Assembly (NCBI GenBank): GCA_937919625.1
Contig: CALFRK010000027.1
Location: 1 to 64,000, forward strand
DNA from: an uncultured Ilumatobacter sp.
GTDB taxonomy: Bacteria > Actinomycetota > Acidimicrobiia > Acidimicrobiales > Ilumatobacteraceae
Direction of reading: 5' to 3'
DNA: 64,000 nt
Under the pieces are notes generated by a model, which was given only the letters and a program-made list of their open reading frames with translations, was not told the DNA's origin and did no database searches. Numbering within the stretch: the stretch's first letter is position 1; every line of letters begins with the position of its first letter. This document shows positions 15,727-26,051 of this stretch, in pieces. Both the position numbers and the translations under genes were made by a program.

Positions 15727-18480
15727 ATGACCGATACATCGGCGGCCGATGCCAGCGACGACATCCGACTGCTGGGGCGACTGATCGGCGACGTGCTGCG
15801 CGAGCAGGCTGGAGATGCCACCTTCGACCTCGTCGAACAGGTTCGCCGTATCGCCGTTGATGCGCGCCGCAGCGGCGACAACCCGATCCACGCCCTCAGC
15901 CAAGCATTGGGCGGCGTCGACATCGAAAACCAGTTGCACGTCATCCGTGCCTTCGGATGGCAATCGCTGCTCGCCAATACCGCAGAGGATCTCCACCAAG
16001 AACGCCGCAGGCGCCATCACCGCGACATAGGGTCAGCCGCGCAGGAGGGCAGCCTCGAAGCCAGCCTCGACCGGCTGCTGGCGCTCGGAGTGCCACGCCA
16101 CCGGATCGTCGCTGAACTCAGCGACCTCACCGTGTCGCCCGTGATCACCGCCCACCCCACAGAGGTTCGCCGCAAGACCGTGCTCGATCGTGTCGACGTC
16201 GTCGCCCAACTTCTCGATCGGCGTACCCGAGCCGGCGCCAGCCCGAGCGAGGTGGCAGAGATCGATGCCGAGCTGCGCCGCGAGATCCTGTCGTTGTGGC
16301 AAACCGCGATACTTCGCCTGTCAAAGCTACGCGTGCGTGACGAGATCAACGAGTCGCTGCGCTACTACCGATCCAGTCTTTTCGCCACGGTGCCCACCCT
16401 GCAACGCGATCTCGAGCGGCAGGTACACGACCGGCTCGGCGAGTCGATGCATAACCCGCGAGTCATCTCGATGGGCTCGTGGATCGGAGGCGACCGCGAC
16501 GGCAACCCGTTCGTCAATGCCTCGGTTCTTCGCCTTGCAGTGGCTGCCCAAGCAACCGAGGCGTACCGACACCATCTTGCGTCGTTGCACAAGTTGGCGA
16601 CGACCCTGTCGATGTCGAGCCGGCTGATCACCCCAACGCCGGCCCTGCTGAAACTCGCCGACGCATCGGGCGACGACTCGCGGTTCCGTGCCGACGAGCC
16701 ATACCGGCGTGCGTTCCGCGGTATGCATGCTCGACTGTGGGCACTGGCGGCGATCGTGCTCGACGAAGCCCCCGGTCCGCCTCCACACGCCGACCTCGCG
16801 CCGTACGAGACGATCGACGAACTGGTCAACGACCTCCACATCGTCGTAGTCTCATTGACATCGCACGGCGCGGCGGCGCTCGCCGAGGCGCTTGTCGAAC
16901 CGGTTCGCGGCGGTGTCGAAATCTTCGGCACCCACCTGTGCGGGCTGGATTTGCGCCAGAACTCGGGTGTTCACGAAGAGGTGCTGGCCGAGCTGTTCAC
17001 GGTTGGCGGCGTCACTGATTCCTATCTCGATCTCGACGAGCCCGACCGGATCGAGATCCTAACCAACGAGCTACGCGGCCAGCGTCCGCTGGCAAGCCCC
17101 TTTGCCACATACTCTGAGACAACGACTGGCGAACTCGACGTGTTGCGGGCCGCCGCAGACGCGCATCGACGCTTTGGTCGCCGTTCGATCCCGCATTATG
17201 TGATCTCGATGGCGACCTCGGTCAGCGATGTGCTCGAAGTGGTCGTCTTGCTCAAAGAGGTTGGACTGGTCACGGTCAACCCTGGCACCGGTGCGATCTC
17301 CGGGGCGATCGACGTCGCTCCGTTGTTCGAAACGATCGACGACCTCGAACAGTCGGGCGAGACACTCGCCAATCTCCTACATCACGACCGATATCGAGAG
17401 CTGCTCGACAGCCGCGGCGGGTGGCAAGAGGTCATGATCGGCTACTCAGACTCGAACAAGGACGGTGGCTACGTCACGTCGCAGTGGGCTCTGTACCGGG
17501 CCCAACGAGCGCTCGTCTCAGCAGCCGCCGAGTCGGGCATACGGATCCGGCTGTTCCACGGGCGTGGCGGCACCGTCGGGCGCGGTGGTGGTCCGGCCTA
17601 CCAGGCGATCCTTGCCCAGCCGGCCGGCTCCGTTCACGGCGCATTGCGGATCACCGAGCAGGGTGAGATGGTGTCCGCCAAATACGCCAAACCGGCGTCG
17701 GCGCGGCGCAACCTCGAAACACTCGTCTCAGCCACGCTCGAGGCGAGTTGTCTTGATGACGAACGACCGAGCGATGACGCGGCACGGTTCACCGCCGCAA
17801 TGGAGTCACTCGCCAAGTCGGCCCTTGAGGCCTATCGCAACCTGATCGACAACTCGTCTGACCGCTTTGTCGACTTCTTCAGGTCGATCACACCGGTTGG
17901 CGAGATCGCCAGTTTGAACGTCGGCAGTCGGCCGGCGTCGCGCAAGAACTCGAATCGAATCCAGGATCTGCGAGCAATCCCATGGGTGTTCGGTTGGAGT
18001 CAATGCAGACTGAACATCCCTGGCTGGTTCGGCGCCGGAAGCGCATTCGAAGCCTTCGCCTCGAATGCCGGCGGCGAGGCCACATTGACCGAGATGCACG
18101 GCCAATGGCCCTTCTTTCGGGCGATGCTCAACAATATGGGCATGGTGCTCGCCAAGACCGACCTCACAATCGGACGCCACTACGCGGACGCCTTGGTCGC
18201 CGATCAGACAGCCCGCGACGAGATCTTCGGTTTGATCCAAAGCGAGCATGCGTTGACGTGCAAGTGGCACGCCCGGCTCAGCGGATCGAACGATCCGCTG
18301 TTCGACAACCCGGTTTTGGCGCGCAGCATCCGTAACCGATTCCCTTATCTCGATCCGCTCCACGTGATGCAGGTCGACCTACTGCGCCGCTACCGAGCGG
18401 GCGAGCAGAACGAACTCGTCGAGCGCGGCATTCAGCTAACGCTCAACACGATTGCCACGGGTCTACGCAATAGCGGTTGA
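15727..18480 (+). CDS. ppc: Phosphoenolpyruvate carboxylase
   Basis: 917 residues. Adds bicarbonate to phosphoenolpyruvate to give oxaloacetate, an anaplerotic step. Signature motifs are present: TAHPTEVRRKT with the catalytic His (about 143), GGDRDGNPFV, EIFGTHLCGLDLRQNS, GYSDSNKDGGYVTSQW, and the glycine-rich FHGRGGTVGRGGGPAY loop. The C-terminus ends ATGLRNSG, the normal end of the family. The ATG at 15727 is chosen; the longer open frame upstream overlaps glgC on the other strand. In this window it may feed carbon together with the malic enzyme at 58733. Confidence 0.96.
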   Translation: MTDTSAADASDDIRLLGRLIGDVLREQAGDATFDLVEQVRRIAVDARRSGDNPIHALSQALGGVDIENQLHVIRAFGWQSLLANTAEDLHQERRRRHHRDIGSAAQEGSLEASLDRLLALGVPRHRIVAELSDLTVSPVITAHPTEVRRKTVLDRVDVVAQLLDRRTRAGASPSEVAEIDAELRREILSLWQTAILRLSKLRVRDEINESLRYYRSSLFATVPTLQRDLERQVHDRLGESMHNPRVISMGSWIGGDRDGNPFVNASVLRLAVAAQATEAYRHHLASLHKLATTLSMSSRLITPTPALLKLADASGDDSRFRADEPYRRAFRGMHARLWALAAIVLDEAPGPPPHADLAPYETIDELVNDLHIVVVSLTSHGAAALAEALVEPVRGGVEIFGTHLCGLDLRQNSGVHEEVLAELFTVGGVTDSYLDLDEPDRIEILTNELRGQRPLASPFATYSETTTGELDVLRAAADAHRRFGRRSIPHYVISMATSVSDVLEVVVLLKEVGLVTVNPGTGAISGAIDVAPLFETIDDLEQSGETLANLLHHDRYRELLDSRGGWQEVMIGYSDSNKDGGYVTSQWALYRAQRALVSAAAESGIRIRLFHGRGGTVGRGGGPAYQAILAQPAGSVHGALRITEQGEMVSAKYAKPASARRNLETLVSATLEASCLDDERPSDDAARFTAAMESLAKSALEAYRNLIDNSSDRFVDFFRSITPVGEIASLNVGSRPASRKNSNRIQDLRAIPWVFGWSQCRLNIPGWFGAGSAFEAFASNAGGEATLTEMHGQWPFFRAMLNNMGMVLAKTDLTIGRHYADALVADQTARDEIFGLIQSEHALTCKWHARLSGSNDPLFDNPVLARSIRNRFPYLDPLHVMQVDLLRRYRAGEQNELVERGIQLTLNTIATGLRNSG

Positions 18481-18487
18481 TCACACG

Positions 18488-18503
18488 CCGTCGGCGCCGA
18501 CGG
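18488..18503. other. Perfect 16-nt palindrome between ppc and the SelW-like gene
   Basis: CCGTCGGCGCCGACGG reads identically on both strands and lies 8 bp after the ppc stop and 13 bp before the SelW-like ATG. It could be a ppc terminator element or a protein-binding site; nothing else supports either choice. Confidence 0.5.
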
Positions 18504-18515
18504 TACGCTCAAGAC

Positions 18516-18785
18516 ATGTCGAGCCACAGCGTCAGCATTACCTACTGCGTTCCTTGAGACTATTCCGAGCGCGCCGTGGGCGCTGCACGAGACCTCGCTC
18601 ACCACTACCAGCACATCATCGCCGACTTGACATTGGTGATGGCTTCCAAGGGCATTTTTGACGTTGTCGTAGACGGCCGGACTCTGTACTCGAAGCACGA
18701 GACCGGCCGACACGCCGAACCTGGTGAGGTGTTGGCGCTGTTTCGGGAGCAATATGCCGCCGACGTCACGCCCTACGAACGCTAG
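18516..18785 (+). CDS. SelW/Rdx-family protein with in-frame UGA (candidate selenoprotein)
   Basis: 89 residues if the TGA at 18555-18557 is read as selenocysteine (residue 14). Reading through gives ITYCVPU followed by DYSERAVGAARDLAHHY, then KGIFDVVVDGRTLYSKHETG and RHAEPGEVLALFRE. This is a nearly complete match to the SelT/SelW/SelH (Rdx) thioredoxin-like family, whose redox motif is YCxxC or YCxxU. The UGA sits exactly at the second redox residue. Homology continues without a break on both sides of the UGA, so a shorter protein started at a downstream ATG (18576) would lack the active site. A hairpin just after the UGA fits a bacterial SECIS. Rdx proteins are small oxidoreductases. The ATG at 18516 has only a weak Shine-Dalgarno. 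No selA, selB, selC or selD lies in the window. Confidence 0.85.
18568..18584 (+). promoter_or_regulatory. Candidate bacterial SECIS hairpin
   Basis: AGCGC/GCGCT forms a 5-bp GC-rich stem with a 7-nt apical loop GCCGUGG. The loop starts 16 nt after the UGA and its first base is G, which fits the published spacing and loop rule for bacterial SECIS elements (apical loop about 16-37 nt after UGA, G near the loop start). The lower stem is not extended by perfect pairs, so structure prediction is needed. Confidence 0.5.
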
Positions 18786-18816
18786 AGAACACGTTCGAAG
18801 CCAGAAGGGGTTTTGG

Positions 18817-19017
18817 TCAAACGACCCTGACGCCGGTCGCCTCTGGGCCCTTGCGCCCAGCAGCGATCTCGAATTCGACCTGCTGGCCGTCGAGGAGGGT
18901 GCGACGTCCGGTGCCTTCGATGTTGCTGAAGTGAACAAAAACGTCATCACCGTCGTCGCGGCTGATGAATCCAAAGCCCTTCTGATCGTTGAAGAACTTC
19001 ACGGTGCCGATTGCCAT
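18817..19017 (-). CDS. Cold-shock domain protein (CspA family)
   Basis: 66 residues, one OB-fold cold-shock domain that binds single-stranded RNA and DNA. Seen: N-terminal [16 protein letters not shown] containing RNP1 (KGFGFI), and [12 protein letters not shown] containing RNP2 (VFVHF). Length is standard. The gene is convergent with the SelW-like gene and divergent from the phosphofructokinase; a leader of up to a few hundred bases upstream is possible, as is usual for regulated csp genes, but no specific element was identified. Confidence 0.95.
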
Positions 19018-19308: not shown

Positions 19309-20457
19309 GTGCGCATCGGAATCTTGACAGGGGGCGGCGACGTCCCCGGCCTCAACGCCGCAATCAAGGCAGTGGTCATCAGGGCCGCCGAAAAGGGCCA
19401 CGAGGTCGTCGGCCTGCGCCGTGGCTGGGCTGGGTTGCTGTACATGGACCCCGACCATCCCGAATCGCTGCGTGAGTTCACCCAACCGATGGACATGAAT
19501 TGGGTCCGCACGATCGATCGGTCGGGTGGCACGATCCTGCACAGCTCGCGAACCCATCCCGGCAAGGTCAAGGCCGACGCCGTCCCCGACTTTCTTCAGC
19601 CACCCGAGGGCGCCGAGCCGCCTTACGATTTCACACCGCACGCCATGAAAGTGATCGACACCCTTGGTATCGACGTGCTGATCCCGATCGGCGGCGATGA
19701 CACACTGTCTTACGGCCTGCGACTGCACCAGGAGGGCGTGCCTGTCATCGCGATCCCGAAAACGATGGACAACGACGTACATGGCACCGACTACTGCATC
19801 GGCTTCTCGACCGCCGTCACCAGGGGTGTTCAGTTCATCAGCAACCTGCGCACGAGCACCGGCTCGCACGAACGGATCGCCGTCGTCGAGCTGTTCGGCA
19901 GGTACAGCGGCGAGACGTCGCTGATCACCGCCTACCTGGCCGGTGTCGACCGGGCGGTCATCTCGGAGGTGCCGGTCGACATCGACCGGCTGGCCGCATT
20001 CTTGGTCGCTGACCGTGCGTCGAATCCCAGTAACTACGCAATGGTCACGATCTCGGAAGGCGCCGTGATCGAGGGCGGCGAGATGTCATTGCGCGGCGAA
20101 GAAGACGCCTACGGGCATCGTAAGCTCGGCGGTATCGGCGAGCAGCTCGGTTCGATGCTTCAAGCAGTAACCGGCGTCAACATCATCAACCAGACGATCG
20201 GATACCTGATGCGTTCGGGCAGTCCCGACTCGCTCGATCTGATGGTTGCCAACAACTATGCAGTGATGGCCGCCGACCTTGCCATGGAAGGCCAGTCGGG
20301 CCGCATGGTCGCACTCCGCGGCGGTACCTACACCAATGTGCCGATCTCGACGATCGGCGAAGGCGTCAAGCGCGTCGACGTCGGTGAGATGTACGACCCC
20401 GAGCAGTACAAGCCGAAGATTCGCCATGTGGGCGGCAAGCCGATGTTCCTGTACTGA
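19309..20457 (+). CDS. 6-phosphofructokinase, pyrophosphate-dependent type by signature
   Basis: 382 residues. Phosphorylates fructose-6-phosphate. Seen: [18 protein letters not shown], substrate loop, and the donor-specificity pair: GGDD (Asp131) where ATP enzymes have GGDG, plus PKTMDND (Lys151). By the known Asp104/Lys124 rule (E. coli numbering), this pair marks PPi-dependent and reversible enzymes. Later motifs [12 protein letters not shown] and [11 protein letters not shown] are normal. GTG start with GAAAGGA upstream. Followed after 60 bp by a second phosphofructokinase on the same strand, so the two are probably co-transcribed. Confidence 0.92.
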
Positions 20458-20517: not shown

Positions 20518-21537
20518 ATGAGTGTCATCGGAGTGCTCACGGCTGGCGGTGACTGCCCCGGCCTAAATGCTGTCATCCGGGGCATCGTCACCCGAGCTAC
20601 CCAAACACACGACGCCGAAGTCGTCGGGATCATGAATGGCTGGGAAGGGTTGATGGACGGCGACGTCAACCTGCTCGACGAGCGCGATGTTCGTGGCATC
20701 CTCGGCAAGGGCGGCACGATCCTCGGCACGTCGCGCAAGGATCCGTACGTGCATGGCGAGGGTTTCGCCAGCGTGGCAAAAACACTCGAGCGCAACGACA
20801 TCGACTCGCTGGTGGTGATCGGGGGCGACGGCACCCTTCGCACCGCGTTACGGCTGGAGCAGGATGGCGCCAAGGTGATCGGCGTTCCTAAGACGATCGA
20901 CAACGACATCGCCGGAACCGACTTCACGTTCGGATTCGACACGGCCGTGCAGATCGTCACCGATGCGATCGACCGACTCACCACTACCGCCGAAGCGCAC
21001 AACCGCGTGATCCTGGTCGAGGTGATGGGTCGAACCAAAGGCTGGATCGCCACCTATGGCGGGATCGCAGGCGGTGCTCAGGTGATTTTGATCCCTGAGG
21101 TGCCATATGACCTCGAGGAAGTGGCGGCACTGATTCGACGTCGCCACCGACGCGGCGAGAAGTACTCGGTGGTCGTGGTTGCCGAAGGTGTCGCGCCGCC
21201 ACACGAGACCGAAATGCAGAAAGACGCGTTCGGGTTCGACCGGCTCGGTGGGGTTGCCTATCAACTCGCCCCGCTGATCGAAGACCTGACCGGTTACGAA
21301 ACACGGGTCACAGTGCTCGGCCATCTCCAGCGAGGCGGCACCCCATCGGCGTTCGACCGGGTGCTTGCCACCCGTATGGGCACCAAAGCAGCCGACCTGG
21401 CGATCGAGGGGCAGTCCGGTGTGATGGTGGCGATGCGAGGCGCCGAGATCGTCAGCGTTCCGCTCGCCCTGGGGTGTTCGGAGATCCGCGGCGTCGACGA
21501 CGATCTCTACAACACAGCAGAGACGTTCTTCGGCTGA
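20518..21537 (+). CDS. 6-phosphofructokinase, ATP-dependent type by signature
   Basis: 339 residues, a paralogue of the preceding gene. N-terminal LTAGGDCPGLNAVIRGIVTRA; donor loop GGDGT with Gly105; PKTIDND with Lys125; VEVMGRTKGWIA; HLQRGGTPSAFDRVLA with effector/substrate Arg. Gly at the 104 position points to ATP use; the Gly/Lys pair is the form seen in several actinobacterial ATP enzymes. The start ATG overlaps a good GGAGAGACCCAAGGAG leader region. Convergent with boxB, whose stop is 16 bp away. Confidence 0.93.
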   Translation: MSVIGVLTAGGDCPGLNAVIRGIVTRATQTHDAEVVGIMNGWEGLMDGDVNLLDERDVRGILGKGGTILGTSRKDPYVHGEGFASVAKTLERNDIDSLVVIGGDGTLRTALRLEQDGAKVIGVPKTIDNDIAGTDFTFGFDTAVQIVTDAIDRLTTTAEAHNRVILVEVMGRTKGWIATYGGIAGGAQVILIPEVPYDLEEVAALIRRRHRRGEKYSVVVVAEGVAPPHETEMQKDAFGFDRLGGVAYQLAPLIEDLTGYETRVTVLGHLQRGGTPSAFDRVLATRMGTKAADLAIEGQSGVMVAMRGAEIVSVPLALGCSEIRGVDDDLYNTAETFFG

Positions 21538-21553: not shown

Positions 21554-22975
21554 TCAGAGCTTGACGTAGTCGAAGTCGACGGGCTGCTGGTGGATGCCCG
21601 CCGACGGAGGCGCCACCCATCCCGCCATCTTGCCCGGCTCGGCGATACCGACCATCAACGATTCGACGTGGGCGCGATCGCCCATTGTCGGCAGCCAGTC
21701 GACGACGTGAAAGTTCCATTCGGCAGCGGTTACAACTCGGCCGTCGGGGCTGATGTCGTAATCGCTGAAGTCGCCGACGTTCCGGTTGAATCCGACATGC
21801 GGCAGCCGCAACTCGCGGTTCACCTCTGCCAACGTGCGGTTCCAGCGGGTTAGCCCTGGTACACAATCTTCGGCATAGTCCTCGCGCAGCGTCTCGTTGA
21901 GGGCGTTCAACAGCGGCGCCTCGCGCCCGGCGATTTGGCCGTGAAGCACGGTCGGCACGATACGAGTGAGGTTGTGCAGGCGATGATCGTCGTCGCGTGA
22001 TTCTTCCTTGAATCGCCCCTTCAGGCCGGCCGCAAAATAGTTGGCGGCGTTGGTCGAGGTCTCTGCGCCGAACAGGTCGAGTGACACGCTGAAGTGGAAG
22101 TTGATGTACTTCTGCAGGGTGTCGACGTCGATTCCGCCGAACTGGCTGATGTCGTCGGTGTCGTGCTGCTTCATCAACTCGACCGTGCGCTCGACGACAC
22201 GGCCCACGCCCGTCGCTCCGACGAACATGTGGTGCGCCTCTTCTTTCAGCATGAAGTCGCATGTGCGTGACAGCGGGTCGAAGCCCGACTCGCGAAGTGA
22301 GGCGAGCTGGTATTTGCCGTCGCGATCGGTGAAGTACGTGAACATGTAGAACGACAGCCAGTCAGGCGTCGGCTCGTTGAAGGCGCCCAGAATTCGGGGG
22401 CTGTCGATATCGCCCGAGTGGCGTTCGAGCATCTCGTCGGCCTCGTCGCGGCCGTCGCGGCCGAAGTAGCGCTGCAGCAGGTACACCATCGCCCACAGGT
22501 GACGGCCCTCTTCGACATTGACCTGGAACAGATTTCGCATGTCGTACAACGACGGCGCCGTGAGGCACAAGTGGCGCTGTTGCTCGACCGACGCCGGCTC
22601 GGTGTCGCCCTGCACGACCAGCAGACGCCTCAGGTCAGCTCGGTACTCGCCAGGCACGTCCTGCCACACCGGTTCGCCCTTGTGGTCACCAAACGCGATC
22701 GTGCGGTCTGGTTCGGGTTCGGCCAGGAATACGCCCCAGCGGTAGTCAGGCATCGAAACGTGGCCGAAGTTGGCCCACCCTTCGCGGCCGACCGATACGG
22801 CCGTGCGCAGGTAGACCGGGTTGTCCTTGAAGGCCACCGGGCCGAGGTCGCGCCACCATTGCAGGAAACGTGGTTGCCAGCCCTCGAGTGCTCGCTGTAA
22901 GCGGCGGTCGTCGGCGAGTCCGACATTGTTCGGGATCTTGGCGTCGATATCGATGGGCGTAAACGCTGCGCTCAT
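21554..22975 (-). CDS. boxB: Benzoyl-CoA 2,3-epoxidase subunit B (di-iron oxygenase)
   Basis: 473 residues. BoxB is the di-iron oxygenase that, with the reductase BoxA, converts benzoyl-CoA to its 2,3-epoxide in the aerobic CoA-dependent benzoate pathway. Seen: N-terminal IDIDAKIPNNVGL, typical of the family; NVEEGRHLWAMVYLL with the Glu/His iron ligands (about 150-153); a DGKYQLASL segment; and FMLKEEAHHMFVG with the second Glu/His pair (about 240-243). Length equals known BoxB proteins. It lies 2 bp after boxC, so the two are one transcript. BoxA and benzoate-CoA ligase are not in the window. Confidence 0.94.
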   Translation of the reverse strand: MSAAFTPIDIDAKIPNNVGLADDRRLQRALEGWQPRFLQWWRDLGPVAFKDNPVYLRTAVSVGREGWANFGHVSMPDYRWGVFLAEPEPDRTIAFGDHKGEPVWQDVPGEYRADLRRLLVVQGDTEPASVEQQRHLCLTAPSLYDMRNLFQVNVEEGRHLWAMVYLLQRYFGRDGRDEADEMLERHSGDIDSPRILGAFNEPTPDWLSFYMFTYFTDRDGKYQLASLRESGFDPLSRTCDFMLKEEAHHMFVGATGVGRVVERTVELMKQHDTDDISQFGGIDVDTLQKYINFHFSVSLDLFGAETSTNAANYFAAGLKGRFKEESRDDDHRLHNLTRIVPTVLHGQIAGREAPLLNALNETLREDYAEDCVPGLTRWNRTLAEVNRELRLPHVGFNRNVGDFSDYDISPDGRVVTAAEWNFHVVDWLPTMGDRAHVESLMVGIAEPGKMAGWVAPPSAGIHQQPVDFDYVKL

Positions 22976-22977
22976 AC

Positions 22978-24675
22978 TCAGACTCGATTTCTGTCGTACT
23001 CAGGGCGCGACCCGGTGCCGAACCGTTGTAAGGCGCCGTTGGGGCCGACCGCGTTGGGGCGTTGGAACACCCAGTTTTGCCAGGCGGTCAGGCGCGAGAA
23101 GATCTTGGTCTCCATCGTTTCCGGCCCCACGAACCGGTAATTGGCTTCCATCGCGGTCAACGCGTCGGGCGAAAAGCTGCAGCGCTCGGCGATCATCACC
23201 GGCACTTCATCGTCCCAGTCGATGTCGTCCATCGCGAACGTGACAAGTTCGGCGACCGCTGCGGCCTCAGCGTTCAGATCCTTACCCATCAGGTCGCGCA
23301 CAACGGCGTAGGCATCGTCGCGGTGCCAGAACCGAGTGGCGAGACGGGAGATGCCGTTGGACATGTGATACCACCCGAAGTTGGCGTCGGTCAGAACCAT
23401 CTTCGGAGCCGGCTGGTCCGAGCCTTCACGTTGACCGTCGAGCATGATTGCCCGATCGGCGGCGAAGGCGAGCTCGGCAAGCGTGCCCGCGAAACAGCTG
23501 CCCTCGTCGATCATCGCGATCAACGATCGGGAGGACAGATCGAGCCGCTTGAGGGTGCGGGTCCACAGCAGACGCACCTCACGAACAAACCAGTTTTCGG
23601 GCTCGCGTTCGATGACAGCTTCGGCCGCCAGCACTGCGTCATCGTCGCCTTCCGTGTGCAACAGCCAGGTGCCGATCAGCGGCTCGTTGAGGCGCAGCAG
23701 AAGGATTGCATAGTCGAGTTCGAGCGCCGTGTTCAATAGCCATCCGTCGGCGCCCGCCTCGATCAGCTGTTCGGCTGTGCCGGGCTGCAACGTGGAAGGG
23801 CCGCGAACAACGAAAGCGGCTGTGCCCAACTGACGATCGATGCTGACATCGACGTTGCGCCCTATCAGCCCGTCGGCGCCGACCGTGGTAGTGCTGCCGA
23901 AGATCGGAAGCGGCACGCCCGGACAGCCGTCGGGCCGCGACGATGTCGCCGCCCGAGCGGCCGCCCGCCCGGCGACGAGAGAATCAAAGTTGCTCTTCGG
24001 GGCGATCGCATCGACAAGCCGCCAATCGACGGCTTGTTGGCCCTTGACCCCCTCGATTCGCGTGGTGAACACATCGGCTAGGTCGCGGCGTACGCGGCGC
24101 TTATCGACGACCCTGGTCAATCCACCAGTACCGGGCAAGACAGCCAACAGAGGAACCTCAGGGAGCGACACGGCCGACGCCAGATCGTCGACCAAAAGGA
24201 TCTCGTCGCAGGCCAGTGCCAGCTCGTAGCCACCGCCGGCCGCAGTGCCGTTGACCGCCGCGATCCAAGTTTGACCGGAGTACTCGGTGGCCTCCTCGAT
24301 CGAGTTGCGAGTCTCGTTGGTGAACTTGCAAAAGTTGACCTTGTGACCGTGGGTCGCCCCCGCAAGCATCTGGATGTTGGCACCGGCGCAGAAGATCTTG
24401 TCAAGCCCACCGGTCAGCACGACTGCCTTGACACCAGCGTGTTCGAATCGCAGACGCTGGGCGATGTCGTGCAGTTCGATGTCGACGGCCAGATCGTACG
24501 AGTTGGTCTTGAGCTCGTAGCCGGTGCTTAGCCCGGCATCCGGTGTGACCGCCATCGTGACCGTGGCGACACTGCCGTCGATGTCGACCGACCAGTGCCG
24601 ATAGTTGGATGGATCGACCCCAAACTCGGTCCTGGCCTCGACGATTCCCTCGCCACCTTCAGCTGACTGGCTCAT
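22978..24675 (-). CDS. boxC: Benzoyl-CoA-dihydrodiol lyase
   Basis: 565 residues. BoxC opens the epoxide ring of 2,3-epoxybenzoyl-CoA with loss of formate. Seen: an N-terminal crotonase fold with VVLTGGLDKIFCAGANIQML and NGTAAGGGYELALACDEI (oxyanion-hole loops), and a second crotonase-like half containing GSCFAGTLAELAFAADRA. The C-terminus carries the AWQNWVFQRPNAVGPNGALQ segment typical of BoxC. The ATG at 24673-24675 gives the normal length; the frame is open further upstream through the intergenic repeat, which is not coding. A purine-rich stretch precedes the ATG. boxB follows at once. Confidence 0.94.
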   Translation of the reverse strand: MSQSAEGGEGIVEARTEFGVDPSNYRHWSVDIDGSVATVTMAVTPDAGLSTGYELKTNSYDLAVDIELHDIAQRLRFEHAGVKAVVLTGGLDKIFCAGANIQMLAGATHGHKVNFCKFTNETRNSIEEATEYSGQTWIAAVNGTAAGGGYELALACDEILLVDDLASAVSLPEVPLLAVLPGTGGLTRVVDKRRVRRDLADVFTTRIEGVKGQQAVDWRLVDAIAPKSNFDSLVAGRAAARAATSSRPDGCPGVPLPIFGSTTTVGADGLIGRNVDVSIDRQLGTAAFVVRGPSTLQPGTAEQLIEAGADGWLLNTALELDYAILLLRLNEPLIGTWLLHTEGDDDAVLAAEAVIEREPENWFVREVRLLWTRTLKRLDLSSRSLIAMIDEGSCFAGTLAELAFAADRAIMLDGQREGSDQPAPKMVLTDANFGWYHMSNGISRLATRFWHRDDAYAVVRDLMGKDLNAEAAAVAELVTFAMDDIDWDDEVPVMIAERCSFSPDALTAMEANYRFVGPETMETKIFSRLTAWQNWVFQRPNAVGPNGALQRFGTGSRPEYDRNRV

Positions 24676-24757
24676 GCGGGCGCTCCTAACGACTGATCCT
24701 GATACTACGTTCCGACCGACCGCTGCGACCCGTGGTCGGCGGCCGGAACCACCAGCG

Positions 24758-24887
24758 TGAGTTGGGAGTTGTGCCTGGAGCGTGAGCCGATAGGCGAACT
24801 GCGACCAATCGTGACGGGGGATTCGTGCGGAATGAAAAGGAGCGAAGCGACCTATCCGCTGAATCCCCTGGCACAACTGCCAACTCA
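24758..24887. repeat. Structured inverted-repeat element, copy 1
   Basis: About 130 bp bounded by 21-nt arms (24758-24778 and 24867-24887) complementary at 19 of 21 positions. Inside, GGGGATTC (24817-24824) pairs with GAATCCCC (24861-24868). It shares GCCGATAGGCGAA, CTGCGACC and CCTGGCACAACT with the element at 34707-34840. It lies between the stop of the ROK kinase gene and boxC, with its right arm covering the ROK stop codon. It could be a structured RNA or leader, a terminator, or a miniature mobile element. Confidence 0.75.
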
Positions 24888-26051
24888 GGGGCGGATGGCG
24901 TGCAGTGCCGCCAGCGCTGAGCCCCGCGCTCCGGCCATGTCGAGATCTGACACCAGCGCGAACTGGACGACTTCGATCTGCTCGACCCGCAGTGTGGTGG
25001 CGTCGCGAACCGAGTCGAGAAACCAGGTTCGAAAGTGTGGCTCGGCCTCGATCACTCCACCACCGACGAAATAGGCGTCGGGGTCGGTGAAGTTGGCAGC
25101 GATCGTGAACAGTCGGCCAATGGCGATCGCCTGCTGCTCGAAAATCTTGAGCGCCATCTCGTCGCCGGCCTCGGCGCACGAACGGATCTGGCGCGCCGCC
25201 TCCTTGCTGGGCAGCGCCGCAACGGGGTGCTCGGGATACTTCGTCAACCAGTACGGGAGCAGATTGCGCTCGAGACCGCTCAGCGACGCAACGCTCTCTG
25301 CATCGCCGACAAAACCACAATTACAGATCGGCGCCGGTTGACCGTCGCCGAGCAGGCCATGCATGGGAATCTGCACGTGCCCGAGTTCGCCTGCCATACC
25401 CGTTGCACCACGAATCACCCGGCCCGATTCGATGACGCCGCCTCCGAGGCCGGTGCCGACGATCGCCGACACCGATGAGCGGTGATCGGCATCGGCACCG
25501 AACAGCTGATCGTGGGCGTACAAGGCGGCCGCGTTGCCATCGTTGTTGTAGATGACAGGTAGGCCCAGGTCGCGTTCGACCATCGTTCGGAAGTCGAAAC
25601 CCCACCAGGCCGGCTGTGAGAAGTTGGTTGCACCTCGTTTGGCGATCACTCCCGTTGCTGTCGCTGGACCGGGCGTGTCGAGGCCGATCGCCCTGACCGC
25701 CTCTGCGGAAGCGCCGGCGGCGTGCAGCACCAACTGCAGCACCTCGCGAATCGCCTCGAGCGCGGCGTCTGGCCCGTCGCCGACCCGGCTCGGCGTTTCG
25801 ACCATGCGATCGATCAGAAATACTCCGCTCTCGTCGAGCACGGTGGCATTCGTCTTGGTGCCGCCAACATCGAGTCCGACGACGACCGCCGAGCGGGCTG
25901 ACGAGGGTGCTGACGAGCGCGATCTGGGGTTCGAGGCAGGTTTCGAGGCGATCAGCACAGGGTAGTGCCCGGTTGGGGCTACAGATCTTCCGATAGGCCG
26001 GTATCGGGAGAATCCACCGAGGACGTTCCGGCTTGACCGGGTCGCCGGCAT
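24885..26051 (-). CDS. ROK-family sugar kinase
   Basis: ROK proteins phosphorylate hexoses such as glucose, N-acetylglucosamine or mannose. Seen: the phosphate-1 motif VVGLDVGGTKTNATVLDE, LDTPGPATATG, NNDGNAAALYAHD with the catalytic Asp, VGTGLGGGVIESGRVIRGA, the ROK zinc site GELGHVQIP with a CNCGFVGDAES Cys cluster, and adenosine loop FVGGGVIEAE. The kinase core starts about 55 residues into the longest frame. The upstream residues are low complexity, and a GTG at 25956-25958 may be the true start. There is no clear ribosome binding site at either. Divergent from the TetR gene. Confidence 0.88.
   Translation of the reverse strand: MPATRSSRNVLGGFSRYRPIGRSVAPTGHYPVLIASKPASNPRSRSSAPSSARSAVVVGLDVGGTKTNATVLDESGVFLIDRMVETPSRVGDGPDAALEAIREVLQLVLHAAGASAEAVRAIGLDTPGPATATGVIAKRGATNFSQPAWWGFDFRTMVERDLGLPVIYNNDGNAAALYAHDQLFGADADHRSSVSAIVGTGLGGGVIESGRVIRGATGMAGELGHVQIPMHGLLGDGQPAPICNCGFVGDAESVASLSGLERNLLPYWLTKYPEHPVAALPSKEAARQIRSCAEAGDEMALKIFEQQAIAIGRLFTIAANFTDPDAYFVGGGVIEAEPHFRTWFLDSVRDATTLRVEQIEVVQFALVSDLDMAGARGSALAALHAIRP

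Follow-up and report, generated by a model that had tools for sequence, protein, structure and literature searches.

The window, which is the whole stretch of 64,000 nucleotides analysed here from an uncultured Ilumatobacter sp., carries a SelW-like gene of the Rdx family with a CxxU motif on its forward strand (18516 to 18785; 89 residues plus the TAG stop codon at 18783 to 18785). When translated throughout, this frame reads MSSHSVSITYCVP*DYSERAV...TPYER* and contains one internal stop, a UGA at codon 14 (18555 to 18557, forward strand), which is the proposed codon for selenocysteine (Sec; U). A sequence-only reading of this DNA had placed the UGA at the second redox residue of the Rdx motif, and this position is confirmed, given that the codon closes the redox motif C-V-P-U (codons 11 to 14; 18546 to 18557, forward strand) within the context YCVPU. 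Gene callers had also been expected to start past the UGA; the mechanical list of open reading frames indeed begins this frame at GTG 18576 (69 amino acids).

The read-through protein scores 59.2 bits against Pfam Rdx (PF10262; cut-off 22.6) and 42.7 bits against TIGR02174 (CXXU_selWTH; cut-off 34.2). Taken on its own, the part past the UGA reaches 32.7 bits with Pfam Rdx, above the cut-off, and 22.6 bits with TIGR02174, below it. Similarity to the family thus lies on both sides of the UGA, as the sequence-only reading had held. The narrower NCBIfam equivalog NF041051 (SelTWH_Campy) is not reached by the window protein (67.9 bits; cut-off 88), which is therefore not placed in it.

A structure model was built with AlphaFold2 from a 33-row alignment (pLDDT 94.9). 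The modelled strands cover residues 4–11, 35–43, 48–52 and 55–59, and the helices residues 17–34, 60–63 and 71–80, with the motif C11-V-P-U14 at the end of the first strand and ahead of the first helix, a position as in the Rdx/SelW-like family. A structure search with the model returned 21 PDB chains at E ≤ 0.001, all from the entries 3dex, 2fa8, 2obk, 2oka, 2p0g and 2ojl, which also match the window protein by sequence. The best structural match is 3dex (SAV_2001; TM 0.82), and the bacterial Rdx structures, 2fa8 and others included, resemble the model with TM values of 0.77–0.83. The window protein is thus predicted by the model to adopt the thioredoxin-like Rdx fold. In the two alignments inspected, 3dex and 2fa8 differ from the window protein in having Cys where it has Sec. 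Mouse SelW (mammalian SELENOW; PDB 2npb) has a similar fold (TM 0.60, E 0.002), and mammalian SELENOW carries a CxxU motif like that of the window protein. However, in eukaryotes the Sec insertion element (SECIS) is located in the 3′-UTR (PMC1088965), whereas the SECIS predicted for the window gene lies in the coding region just past the UGA.

Conservation of the UGA among relatives

A search of the class with the window protein matched 156 of 395 sampled genomes. Among the matches listed (150 rows), every row has at least one in-frame TGA, so that an Rdx gene with a UGA is found in 148 of the 395 genomes. In a separate search, which may miss the closest sequences, the nearest named records were MAGs of Acidimicrobiaceae (88%) and Ilumatobacter (84%). 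The Rdx genes of the class are probably widely misannotated. Eight matching genomes outside the listed rows were examined with Pfam Rdx: five have one TGA, G004 has a Cys form of a different type (CTQC), G152 has a contig-edge fragment that begins past the motif, and G010 has no Pfam Rdx match. In the window's own family, Pfam Rdx found no match in 20 searched genomes, which were drawn from 23 unmatched in the class search. The class, as examined, has almost solely Sec forms of Rdx and is suited to asking why Sec is kept. Cys homologues are reported to be few among Sec users (PMC1794560).

Every one of the 117 fetched loci, which comprise 109 distinct sequences, shows TGA at column 14. It had been argued that a random stop would not be expected to fall on this one residue, and the recurrence of TGA in the exact same column takes its placement beyond chance. 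In a sample of the phylum, 50 of 396 genomes match, with TGA in 40 of 51 rows and no stop in the remaining 11. The four no-stop rows inspected (L157–L160, from other Actinomycetota) have Cys at the Sec column; an alignment with Cys and Sec forms had been proposed as a check. Used as a query, the window protein thus picks up Cys forms as well. Among viral contigs, 82 pattern matches included no relative, where one of the two patterns took the Sec site as Cys.

The codons ahead of the UGA are conserved as protein. In the 33-row alignment (Sec printed as Cys), all rows share Tyr 10, and either Cys or Sec stands at residue 11. Between the window gene and L055, pN/pS is 0.17 before the UGA and 0.18 after it; across eight relatives it ranges from 0.15 to 0.58 before and from 0.17 to 0.37 after, and for ten sequences pooled it is 0.50 and 0.34, respectively. 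By these ratios, the coding sequence is under purifying selection both before and after the UGA.

Start, predicted SECIS hairpin and proposed decoding of the UGA

A −10 box, TACGCT (18504 to 18509, forward strand), is predicted by consensus match only, 6 nt ahead of the start codon. Among 104 distinct relatives, which are related rows with five distant ones excluded and starts set by rule (nearest ATG first), 86 have a TANNNT box ending 4–9 nt (mostly 6 or 7) ahead of the start, against 4.8 expected from single-base shuffles. Given this spacing, transcription probably starts at the AUG, ahead of the UGA, and the window mRNA may be leaderless. In some of the rows that lack the box, a Shine-Dalgarno-like stretch is seen in its place. 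The TANNNT boxes ahead of Rdx genes within L020–L136 possibly mark leaderless selenoprotein mRNAs across the class; a literature search that mostly did not extend to subscription papers turned up no description of a bacterial selenoprotein mRNA that is leaderless.

A bacterial SECIS hairpin is predicted at 18569 to 18586 (forward strand), beginning 11 nt past the UGA, with the stem GCGCGCC, the loop GUG and the returning strand GGCGC, a bulged U at 18584, and GC. A start 11 nt past the UGA and a bulged U are features of the minimal SECIS of E. coli fdhF as well. Covariation was assessed in 40 segments hand-picked for diversity from 80 non-redundant ones, leaving out four proteobacterial rows, L096 and L098, which fold differently. 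In this set, paired cells in the 6-bp hairpin amount to 86.7% compared with 80.3 in shuffled data, and 24 cells are changed on both sides compared with 7.5 ± 2.0 in shuffles (reached in 0 of 500); the best slid control gave 8. Of the five covariation measures, two are unremarkable, namely both-side-changed pairs (37 of 500 shuffles) and the number of further pair types (189 of 500). RNAalifold recovers the inner four pairs. The predicted fold contains the inner stem in 61 of the 67 distinct segments of 20 nt (missing in L075, L077, L078 and L096–L098) and in 65 of 80 segments of 48 nt, the other 15 preferring another fold.

Codon choice was also considered. Across 104 distinct sequences, synonymous choice is frozen right at the place of the hairpin, at codons +4, +6, +7 and +8 (GAG in 29 of 29, GCC in 94 of 101, GTG in 94 of 104 and AGC in 69 of 75). 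A test against random synonymous codons, which applied the codon usage of the window's genome to all segments, gave p < 0.05 in 28 of 62 segments with a mean z of −1.54; for the window sequence alone the hairpin is not significant (p 0.073). The fold of the 66 nt past the UGA in the window sequence alone has a z of −0.42, and the SECIS is therefore visible only by comparing relatives. An Rfam search returned no SECIS match. By comparison of relatives, the hairpin behaves as would a bacterial SECIS with a G in the apical loop.

The sequence-only reading had proposed a search for selA, selB, selC (tRNA-Sec) and selD, and all four are present in the window's own genome (G000; 4.1 Mb in 185 contigs, 98.73% complete, 3.05% contaminated). 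SelB (262 bits; cut-off 242.25) and tRNA-Sec (63.9 bits; cut-off 47; ARAGORN anticodon tca), whose joint absence had been named as evidence against a selenoprotein, are both found. SelA scores 406.9 bits (cut-off 267.9), with its gene adjoining selB on contig C1, and selD scores 322.7 bits (cut-off 125); the latter is, judged by its motif, presumably a Cys form. Within the order (151 genomes), tRNA-Sec was counted at E < 1e-9, a threshold put at a gap in the listed values, and is found in 35 of 37 Rdx-carrying genomes compared with 38 of the 114 in which no Rdx was matched (Fisher p 1.7e-11, uncorrected for relatedness). The two Rdx genomes without tRNA-Sec are G252, in which selA is present, and G265. 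The 38 genomes with tRNA-Sec and without Rdx indicate that Rdx is not the sole use of Sec in the order.

The same genome also contains a formate dehydrogenase-like gene with a UGA in NRTUHAPS (G000:C37:11030-12901; L144, L151), which we take to be the Sec site of FdhA. This gene scores 649.8 bits against its model, below the cut-off of 666.25, and model positions 1–50 match another place on the contig. It is a likely second selenoprotein of the window's genome. A home-made scan for further Sec UGAs, covering the window and four genome stretches, was uninformative, as its printed rows lacked even the Rdx gene. Reassignment of UGA was considered and rejected, given that UGA otherwise serves as the usual stop: among long open reading frames it ends 31 of 41 in the window and, in stretches of two genomes with a UxxU motif, 8 of 22 and 10 of 25.

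The family match, the Sec machinery and the conservation together support the earlier proposal that the UGA is the Sec codon of a SelW/Rdx selenoprotein, and the window gene very probably reads this apparent stop as Sec in its active site. It is almost certain, in our assessment, that the locus encodes an 89-residue SelW-like/Rdx selenoprotein with a Cys-x-x-Sec pair, its UGA being decoded via the downstream SECIS and SelB. Sequence analysis establishes the frame, the UGA, the family, the machinery, the conservation and the covarying hairpin, and from these we infer Sec insertion, a leaderless start and redox activity. Transcription would probably start at the AUG itself, yielding a leaderless mRNA. 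The hairpin 11 nt downstream of the UGA would recruit SelB with Sec-tRNA(Sec), made by SelA using selenophosphate from SelD, and owing to this SelB the ribosome would decode codon 14 as Sec. The product would be a small thiol/selenol oxidoreductase with a thioredoxin-like fold.

Three other accounts of the locus were weighed. An in-frame stop close to the start of a small gene, in an assembly split over 185 contigs, could be a damaged Cys codon, arising either in a dead gene or through a sequencing error. Yet the UGA recurs across many assemblies in every fetched locus, pN/pS is below 1 on either side of it, and the promoter-like box and the hairpin are retained in relatives, which makes this doubt, raised by the sequence-only reading itself, very unlikely to the point of being negligible. 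Were the UGA a true stop, the product would run for 69 residues from GTG 18576 without the active site; this equals the mechanical open reading frame, which passes the Pfam Rdx cut-off unaided. Such a start is nevertheless highly improbable, since it leaves unexplained the protein-level conservation ahead of the UGA (Tyr 10, Cys or Sec at residue 11, and the low pN/pS against L055) and the −10-like box placed ahead of the upstream ATG. The minus strand is also open across the locus (18432 to 18974, 180 amino acids). This frame has no Pfam match at E ≤ 1 and overlaps a cold-shock gene (18817 to 19017) on the same strand in another frame, whereas the plus frame matches Rdx over the cut-off and is conserved across the class; there is hardly any chance that the minus-strand frame is the gene.

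The Sec-containing Rdx gene of the window is a further member of the long-known SelW-like CxxU selenoproteins and no new kind. These are a known bacterial family, abundant in marine data according to the sections consulted of two accounts (PMC1088965, PMC2398784), and the window gene shares with them the family (Pfam Rdx), the CxxU motif and a UGA with a hairpin just downstream. The window's lineage is unnamed in the consulted parts of these accounts, and a literature search on selenoproteins and Acidimicrobiia, in which subscription papers were mostly out of reach, found no report of selenoproteins of this lineage.

A predicted UxxU branch in a related genus

A group of cousins of the window gene seems, from its sequences, to use Sec twice in the active site. 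This set (L040, L047, L079, L080 and L119–L132) belongs to the genus of G322, in the same order as the window and in another family. The gene is present in 20 of 22 species of this genus, with two TGAs in 16 and one in 4. The two TGAs lie 9 nt apart, and the motif is Y-U-V-P-U in all 16 two-TGA genes; one of these proteins (L040) scores 57.5 bits against Pfam Rdx. Outside this genus, the extra TGA of two-TGA rows sits at the gene end (L109, L113, L114 and L115), as it does in G475 (L156). A tree gives UxxU one origin inside CxxU with support of 97/79, although it has few columns and the bootstrap is not settled. SelA is found in 21 of the 22 genomes of the genus and tRNA-Sec over the cut-off in 17; G322 and G410, which are single-contig genomes with UxxU genes, have both. 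Five of the 16 UxxU assemblies are without tRNA-Sec over the cut-off (G252, G399, G401, G405 and G409) and one is without selA (G397), and none is without both.

UxxU forms of SELENOW have been reported from amphioxus and Ostreococcus lucimarinus (PMC7539508); like the proteins predicted in the genus of G322, they have a motif with two Sec residues. Those proteins are eukaryotic, whereas the genus is bacterial and the window gene itself is CxxU. Two reviews of prokaryotic selenoproteins, in the portions consulted, give SELENOW-like proteins solely as CxxU, one of them with ‘1’ Sec, although UxxU appears in them for other families of bacteria, Prx-like proteins among them (PMC13188914, PMC9312934). 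A literature search, to which subscription papers were mostly closed, yielded no account of a UxxU Rdx in bacteria.

On balance, we lean towards the view that in the genus of G322 a CxxU protein became a diselenide-type UxxU Rdx. In this view a single SECIS hairpin on a leaderless mRNA would serve both UGAs, which lie 9 nt apart, and a Cys in the SK-loop, whose position differs between two UxxU subclades, would be a third candidate redox residue. If true, this would be a counterpart in bacteria, independently evolved, to the UxxU SELENOW known from amphioxus and Ostreococcus, and two Sec residues would be inserted with the help of one bacterial SECIS. The genus would make it possible to ask directly whether a single SECIS in a bacterium can serve two neighbouring UGAs, and what is gained from a diselenide. 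A Cys lies at most six residues after SK in 15 of 15 distinct UxxU proteins compared, once five distant rows are set aside, with 1 of 88 distinct CxxU proteins. Because the sequences are related, this contrast represents few events, and its p-value overstates it. This Cys occurs as DDC or ATDC, at two positions.

Genomic surroundings

Neighbours recur sparsely among the 117 loci, whose flanks mostly extend 1.5–2 kb. With the window's own copy counted, ppc is found 8 times, csp 4 times and pfk 4 times, and therefore no conserved operon is seen within the fetched flanks. In the window, two phosphofructokinase-type genes with quite unlike scores stand in tandem (19309 to 20457 and 20518 to 21537). 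On the minus strand at 21554 to 25320 lie boxB (768.7 bits) and boxC (813.5 bits), both over their cut-offs, which are genes of aerobic benzoyl-CoA epoxidation; about 230 residues precede the matched part of the boxC frame. A bacterial class A RNase P RNA (175.7 bits), cut by the window edge, occupies positions 1 to 314.
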